DNA of 39,650 nucleotides, from contig JAPZAP010000111.1 of assembly GCA_027460585.1 (NCBI GenBank), forward strand, positions 1 through 39,650, written 5' to 3'. This stretch comes from Candidatus Methanoperedens sp. (GTDB lineage: Archaea > Halobacteriota > Methanosarcinia > Methanosarcinales > Methanoperedenaceae). The notes under the pieces are model-generated. The model had not been told where the DNA came from. It ran no database searches and was given only the letters and a program-made list of their open reading frames with translations. Positions 2,642 to 26,561 of the stretch are shown in pieces. A program made the position numbers and the translations under genes. The stretch's first letter is position 1, and each line of letters begins with the position of its first letter.

Positions 2642-2718
2642 AAACAACGAACTGGTACGAACTCGAAACGAACTCTTGGTAATATGAGTTCGTCACAGTT
2701 CGTTTTAGTTCGTTGTTT
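2642..2718. repeat. Palindromic ACGAACT-repeat hairpin, copy 1
   Basis: A 77-nt near-perfect palindrome. The left arm has three ACGAACT-like units with 10-11 nt spacing (outer AAACAACGAACT) and the right arm has three matching AGTTCGT units (outer AGTTCGTTGTTT). The outer 12 bp, middle 7 bp and inner 8 bp pair perfectly, with a loop of about 10 nt. It sits 47 nt after the tldD stop, between convergent tldD and cupin genes. Two diverged copies lie at 25667-25736 and 27466-27538. It is not a classical terminator because no T-run follows. Confidence 0.85.
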
Positions 2719-2821: not shown

Positions 2822-3142
2822 TTATTCAGCAACATCTTCCACGAATATCATTTTCAAAACTTTTGTGAGGGCCTTGCCCTTGTGTTTATCTTTGTCGCCT
2901 GCCGGTATAAATAATCCATCACCTGTATTGAACACAACAACATTTCCATCAAAATTTACTTCCAATTTGCCCTCTAAAATATACACAATATGTCCTTTAG
3001 TACACCAATCAGTTTCGACAAACTCATCAGTGAACTCTACTAAACGAACTTGTTTGCCATTGCGTTTATAAGCTTTAAATCTTACACCATCTGCCGGATT
3101 TTCCCATGGTATCGATGTAAAATCAATTTTGCATTGTTCCAT
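2822..3142 (-). CDS. Small single-domain cupin protein
   Basis: 106 residues, a single cupin_2 beta-barrel. The central segment ETDWCTKGH...LEGKLEVNFDG and the second motif GDGLFIPAG define the two cupin motifs. The first motif has only one His (in KGH), so metal binding may be weaker than in classical HxH cupins. Such stand-alone cupins have no settled function; sugar or small-ligand binding or dioxygenase-like roles are possible. AGGAG lies about 9 nt before the ATG. It is convergent with tldD across the palindromic element and divergent from the RelA/SpoT gene. Confidence 0.85.
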   Translation of the reverse strand: MEQCKIDFTSIPWENPADGVRFKAYKRNGKQVRLVEFTDEFVETDWCTKGHIVYILEGKLEVNFDGNVVVFNTGDGLFIPAGDKDKHKGKALTKVLKMIFVEDVAE

Positions 3143-25742: not shown

Positions 25743-26561
25743 TTATTTTTTTTGAACTGGCTGACTTACAAGCGCGCTTGCAAGCATTATCGCCCTTGTA
25801 TAATGCCCGCCGACGCGCGAAGTATCCACAAACACCTTATCCATCAATACAGGCGCGCCATGACCGTAACCGCCGCCCAGGAACACAAGTGTCCGGAAGA
25901 TCAGGTTCCCTGAAATGCCATCGGGCGCAAGGATGAAATTTGCCTCTTCTATCGCATCTTCAATCAAAATGGAATAATTCTTTGCATCAATTCCAATCTC
26001 GCATAATTTATTTGTGACAATTTGGGCTTCCTCCAGCGTCCTGTCCACAATTTCACCCCTTCCTTTATCTTCAAAACGCCCGCCTGAGAGGATACCCACT
26101 TTCATTTTCACACCAAGGCGTTTAAAGTGCCCTGCTGCACGTTTTACAAGCTCCACTTTATCATCGATGGAATTTCCTTCGTCAATCCCGACAGGCGCAA
26201 GGAAAAACGGTTTACCGCCTGCTGTTTCCAACAACGCGACCCGGTAAAGTTTCTTGATGTTCAATGATCTTTTTAATTCTGAAAGCGTTTTTGTTGCGCT
26301 GAGCGTTCCCCTGACGGCTCCATCTATCTTCCCGGAAATCAGTAATTCGACAAGTTTCTTTGGCGCCTCATCTGAATGGAATATTTCCAGGTTTGTGCCC
26401 ACCGCTTTTATCTCTTTTTCATCGCCAACCAGCACAACATCAGCATATTCGCTTGCAGCTTCCGCGCTCCTTATGAGCTTTTCCGATATCTTCCCGATCC
26501 CAAGCCCTATACGAGCGTGATTATTTTTTGCTTTTTTCTCAATATCAGATAGTAGTGACAT
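25743..26561 (-). CDS. mtxX: MtxX, methanogenesis marker protein 4
   Basis: 272 residues from the ATG at 26561; a longer frame from 26621 would overlap proC and is less likely. The protein resembles the phosphate acetyl/butyryl-transferase fold: ARIGLGIGKISEKLIRSAEAASEYADVVLVGD, GKIDGAVRGTLSATKTL, LAPVGIDEG and a C-terminal LAPDGISGNLIFRTLVFLGGGYGHGAPV. MtxX is found in methanogens and relatives and has been linked to methyltransferases, but its reaction is not known. It begins 16 nt after the proC stop, so it is likely co-transcribed with proC. Confidence 0.9.
   Translation of the reverse strand: MSLLSDIEKKAKNNHARIGLGIGKISEKLIRSAEAASEYADVVLVGDEKEIKAVGTNLEIFHSDEAPKKLVELLISGKIDGAVRGTLSATKTLSELKRSLNIKKLYRVALLETAGGKPFFLAPVGIDEGNSIDDKVELVKRAAGHFKRLGVKMKVGILSGGRFEDKGRGEIVDRTLEEAQIVTNKLCEIGIDAKNYSILIEDAIEEANFILAPDGISGNLIFRTLVFLGGGYGHGAPVLMDKVFVDTSRVGGHYTRAIMLASALVSQPVQKK

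Follow-up and report, generated by a model that had tools for sequence, protein, structure and literature searches.

Heptad-built palindromes of a Methanoperedens genome probably form a MITE/REP-like family of mobile repeats

Three long palindromes, all beside gene ends, occur in the 39,650-nt stretch of archaeal DNA analysed here (the window), and they raise the question of whether such hairpins are control signals fixed to their neighbouring genes or copies of something that moves. Its source is a draft Candidatus Methanoperedens genome (153 contigs, 2.47 Mb) that has mtxX, LonB and TldD genes. An earlier note on this DNA had described the palindromes as hairpins of mirrored ACGAACT and AGTTCGT units, and each is indeed built with three heptads per arm. 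Copy 1 (2642-2718), which had been called nearly perfect, lives up to that description in sequence and in folding; it reads AAACA-ACGAACT-GGT-ACGAACT-CGAA-ACGAACT-loop-AGTTCGT-CAC-AGTTCGT-TTT-AGTTCGT-TGTTT. Its left arm (2647-2674, plus strand) has heptads at 2647, 2657 and 2668 (spacing 10 and 11), and its right arm (2687-2713, minus strand) has inverted heptads at 2687, 2697 and 2707 (spacing 10 and 10). The gene tldD (plus strand) lies on one side and a convergent minus-strand ORF (2822-3142) on the other, and an A6/T6 tract (six A on the plus strand) stands at the left foot.

The other two palindromes are present, with ends shifted from those first assigned and with damage to their heptads. 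Copy 2 (25667 to about 25739) is degenerate and lies between a convergent thioredoxin-like gene and mtxX, followed within a few nucleotides by a T8 tract (25746-25753, plus strand) that is terminator-like for that strand. Copy 3 (27466 to about 27539) lies between the asnB 3' end and the proC 5' end; its outermost left heptad is degenerate, a T5 tract follows on the right, and the sequence flanking it on that side, AATTTTTCATATATGAGGCAAAGCTCGCAAAG, is similar to TTTTTCATACCAG-GCGCAAAG, an outer module that other copies have. Predicted folding of copies 1, 2 and 3 as RNA gives energies of -37.6, -19.8 and -30.2 kcal/mol, with z scores against dinucleotide shuffles of -7.3 (the strongest), -2.9 (the weakest) and -5.0. 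Exact heptads in the window number six for ACGAACT and seven for AGTTCGT where about one of each is expected, and 11 of these 13 fall within the three elements. A chance origin of the palindromes is excluded. In an Rfam scan of the window only two tRNAs passed threshold and the hairpins matched no family; we likewise found no published description of an ACGAACT hairpin family in a literature search of incomplete coverage.

The earlier note had staked its idea of a family on further copies being found, and they are plentiful. A 28-base three-heptad pattern, allowing up to three mismatches, finds at least 21 copies in the genome of the window, and its reversed control finds none. A first search of relatives matched the pattern in all 23 same-genus genomes. 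A class-wide scan of 238 genomes with a two-plus-one heptad pattern, whose control pattern gave no matches, detected the motif in 31/31 Methanoperedens genomes, in 3/3 genomes of sister genera and in only 3/204 outside Methanoperedenaceae (G036, G052 and G056, all from one other family). Matches in named genomes are nearly all from Candidatus Methanoperedens or Methanoperedenaceae. Copy number varies from a few to at least 40 between related species and is highest in M. nitroreducens (G015) and G013. Two non-archaeal records, one labelled Klebsiella (L092) and one Flavobacteriales (L141), are without the full structure and look like chance matches. The same is true of two IMG/VR hits, one of them in phage coding sequence, which a second viral scan returned again; a plasmid search gave no match to the element.

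Copies occupy different places in different species. Comparison of tldD and mtxX loci with orthologues in up to 29 genomes found no element 3' of tldD in 26 other genomes and none at the site corresponding to that beside mtxX. In the closest relative (G002), the interval between the same thioredoxin and mtxX genes, with one conserved mtxX sequence as end point in both genomes, is 57 nt as opposed to 152 nt here, 95 nt shorter and without the element. The exact case of insertion comes from another copy (G000:C110:4130-4211), where about 138 bp reading CTGGTATGAAAA..hairpin..GTTCATAGTCGACTTTG interrupts a pseudogene that is uninterrupted in six relatives. That gene appears geranylgeranyl-reductase-like on our reading of its sequence, with no profile match. 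No target-site duplication is obvious at this single exact empty site. Empty sites for other copies could not be established because gene order is too scrambled between relatives.

The family shows recent amplification as well as decay. A 190-bp repeat with the hairpin at its centre occupies about 41 places in M. nitroreducens (83-100% identity), and a tandem dimer points to the same ends for this unit. Old copies common to several species (in the IscU-SufS, nif and hsdM regions) have lost or damaged heptads. Hairpins near fwdB coincide in two species but have different flanks, and we read them as probable separate insertions. Short, non-coding, dispersed in many copies, restricted to a lineage and inserted at sites that relatives have empty, the hairpins bear out the suggestion that they are MITE-like. 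The proposal that they serve mRNA 3' processing or stability, in a role tied to tldD, mtxX or asnB, finds no support, since the sites are not conserved and old copies decay. Seen across genomes, the family does not look like a set of fixed control signals of neighbouring genes.

Placement nonetheless has a pattern. The 128 usable copies fall in 31 convergent, 76 tandem and 21 divergent gaps, where 22, 66 and 40 are expected from intergenic bases (p = 0.0008; p = 0.004 by gap count), both p values being approximate, since gene calling followed a simple ORF rule and the copies are partly interdependent. Of 128 copies 127 count as intergenic; one further copy, outside the gap tally, lies in an ORF beside masked sequence. 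Within tandem gaps, 47 of the 76 copies are nearer the upstream stop, a slight excess. Placement at random is not what the tabulation shows, but the link to 3' ends is only a tendency: the claim that all copies sit at gene 3' sides reduces to a mild, real bias, as 21 copies lie in divergent gaps and copy 3, whose neighbours asnB and proC are minus-strand genes, is 3' of the one and also 5' of the other. The 3' placement most likely reflects tolerance. A 3' bias, a convergent excess and a divergent deficit are what would be expected if selection acts against insertions in promoters.

A first rival holds that the hairpins are double-sided transcription terminators or mRNA 3'-end stability elements, in which transcripts from either strand would be ended or protected by the stem and its outward U-tract. 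The earlier note had set termination aside for lack of a T-run. This is untrue of the family: an outward run of at least five T within 35 nt occurs on at least one side of 83% of 127 copies and on both sides of 21%, against a background of 9% per side, and all three window copies have such tracts. Both element flanks share the consensus TGTTAATNTTTTTT, read outward. Together with the strong folds of the window copies and the excess near convergent ends and upstream stops, these tracts favour termination; the lack of site conservation between species, the copies in divergent gaps and the uncompensated changes described below weigh against it. Archaeal termination, moreover, requires a U-tract and not a hairpin. 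We regard this rival as unlikely, and terminator activity is more likely a co-opted side effect than the reason for the family's existence.

Alignment of 120 distinct cores separates heptad from stem. Heptad positions are 80-100% conserved, most above 90%, with positions 2, 4, 5 and 6 at 97-100%; the spacers are variable (2-4 nt), and heptads lie 9-11, mostly 10-11, bp apart. Among 360 heptad pairs, 144 are changed and none of the 144 is compensated. Spacers pair between arms less often than in shuffles (0.389 vs 0.484 +/- 0.022 with duplicate spacer sets removed), a deficit also seen before duplicates were removed. Perfect palindromes are unstable in cells, and avoidance of a perfect palindrome may explain this deficit. 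We reject selection on an RNA structure, given the absence of compensated changes and spacer pairing below chance. As judged from these cores, what is kept is the heptad sequence and not the stem, a pattern to be expected of sites that a protein binds at intervals of one helical turn. Uncompensated changes also arise by neutral decay; they speak against stem selection and are not in themselves proof that a protein binds. What argues for binding is the constancy of the heptads between subfamilies that have diverged in their spacers. These features lend indirect support to the earlier suggestion of an array of protein binding sites.

Conserved heptads, free spacers and 10-11 bp spacing would suit a second rival, in which the host maintains the hairpins as sites where a nucleoid or regulatory protein binds across the chromosome, like a dispersed operator family, and the motif is present in every genus genome checked. 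Copy numbers ranging so widely between related species, sites that species do not have in common, and the decay of those copies that are shared, unlike a needed host site, make this quite improbable.

No transposase for the hairpins was found in a non-exhaustive search, and no protein family recurs beside them; the recurrent neighbours are just translated repeats plus a few unrelated housekeeping or restriction genes. No autonomous transposon with matching ends emerged from the neighbour families, Y1 genes and DUF1670 genes checked, again not exhaustively. DUF1670 genes are absent from most hairpin-bearing genomes and unlinked to the element, the M. nitroreducens case being an insertion into a hairpin. 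A REP/REPIN-type element spread by a Y1 (RAYT) transposase is very improbable: the hairpins are palindromic, intergenic, high in copy, mosaic with other repeats and targeted by other insertions, and Y1 genes occur in 22/24 genus genomes, but a hairpin is near only 1 of 30 Y1 loci, no Y1 gene was detected in hairpin-bearing G002 and G016, the unit is longer than REP, and no tag tetranucleotide was seen.

The core often lies within a larger mosaic unit of 138-230 bp with ends CTGGTATGAA...GTTCATAGYCGACTTTGCG. These outer ends (CTGGTATGAA and TTCATAGYCGA) are imperfectly inverted, the core itself being palindromic, and unit boundaries differ between subfamilies. The outer unit is often embedded in CGCAAAG/CACAGAG arrays; it occurs without a hairpin in L304 and L319, and in L316 its centre holds another inverted array, of CACGGAT type. 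Several repeat families of these genomes therefore share an inverted-tandem-array design. In M. nitroreducens (L292-L321) the other inverted arrays nested with hairpins have CGCAAAG, CACAGAG and CACGGAT as their short tandem units.

Hairpins are in turn targets of other insertions. A group II intron, identified by RT and maturase domains and Rfam intron models, lies inside two M. nitroreducens hairpins at independent loci (L352 348-1610 and 2502-2637; L357 998-1133), both times at AGTTCG^T within a heptad. Another M. nitroreducens heptad is immediately followed by a 1.9-kb element that carries two DUF1670 genes, and in L083 an ORF with a 14-bp duplication interrupts a hairpin. As observations in their own right, the hairpins of L099 and L162 are interrupted at the same position by AAAGCGACACCTCGCTTT, a small stem-loop element, and tandem DUF1670 genes (L353 281-1908; L383) lie within a unit of about 1.9 kb in G015 and G062. 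These gene pairs look like part of a transposon because the unit has CCATTTGACCTCT-like inverted ends.

The hairpins of the window are, in our judgement, probably copies of a short non-autonomous mobile palindromic repeat of Methanoperedenaceae, a new MITE/REP-like family whose heptads are putatively contacted by a transposase or other spread factor. What was demonstrated carries this reading: the copies are dispersed, confined to a lineage and recently amplified, one was inserted at an exact empty site, old ones have decayed, and heptads rather than pairing are conserved. Unit boundaries that vary between subfamilies, unlike those of a simple MITE, count against it, as do the searches above that found no transposase, no recurrent neighbour family and no clear target-site duplication. 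The core (about 75-100 bp) would be organised as AAAAAATTAACA-[ACGAACT x3]-C..G-[AGTTCGT x3]-TGTTAATTTTTT. Its six heptads would be contact sites of a DNA-binding protein that recognises each arm from one face, at three sites, most simply a transposase or another factor that spread requires; binding itself we infer from sequence. Copies would persist mainly where they are harmless, between genes and away from promoters, and outward T-tracts may turn them into double-sided terminators that soften insertion damage. A bolder version, which we hold tentatively and think doubtful, has a dedicated Methanoperedenaceae protein on the six phased heptads drive spread through the double-stranded array, not the hairpin, with the arrays also docking group II introns and transposons. 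In these archaea one repeat family would then organise how other mobile DNA inserts.

The tldD locus carries a further observation. The last 25-32 tldD codons are duplicated 0.3-1.8 kb downstream in six Methanoperedens genomes (L203, L205, L206, L207, L210 and G010:C221:2668-2763), a pattern such as might be left by an integrative element whose attachment site is the 3' end of tldD. On the 3' side of tldD, gene order varies between species.

Methanoperedens consumes methane, is not in pure culture, harbours Borgs and has a fast-changing gene order. A genus-wide mobile palindrome targeted by introns and transposons provides a natural strain-typing marker as well as a concrete handle on how this genome changes. 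Its heptads, phased and without compensating changes, are unusual in design, and from them a specific binding protein that should be findable is predicted.

Among known systems, intrinsic terminators share the stem-loop and, with most copies, the T-tracts, but the hairpins are not fixed to genes and conserve heptad sequence rather than pairing. Borg tandem repeats are also short repeated units linked to Methanoperedens, but those are perfect direct repeats that have been reported to be virtually missing from the host (PMC9879509), whereas the hairpin elements are inverted arrays in the host chromosome. Bacterial REP, BIME and REPIN elements are similarly short, many-copy intergenic palindromes, mosaic with other repeats and used as insertion-element targets (PMC3116915, PMC2817692, PMC1525189). 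The Methanoperedens element differs in its core, which is 75-100 bp long and has three phased heptads in each arm and unpaired spacers, in having no Y1 linkage found, and in being archaeal, of one family with rare outside cases. From MITEs it departs in its modular boundaries and in that no end-sharing parent transposon or target duplication was found; like archaeal and bacterial MITEs (reviewed in PMC10969869), it is non-coding, palindromic and dispersed, with subfamily amplification and a demonstrated empty site.
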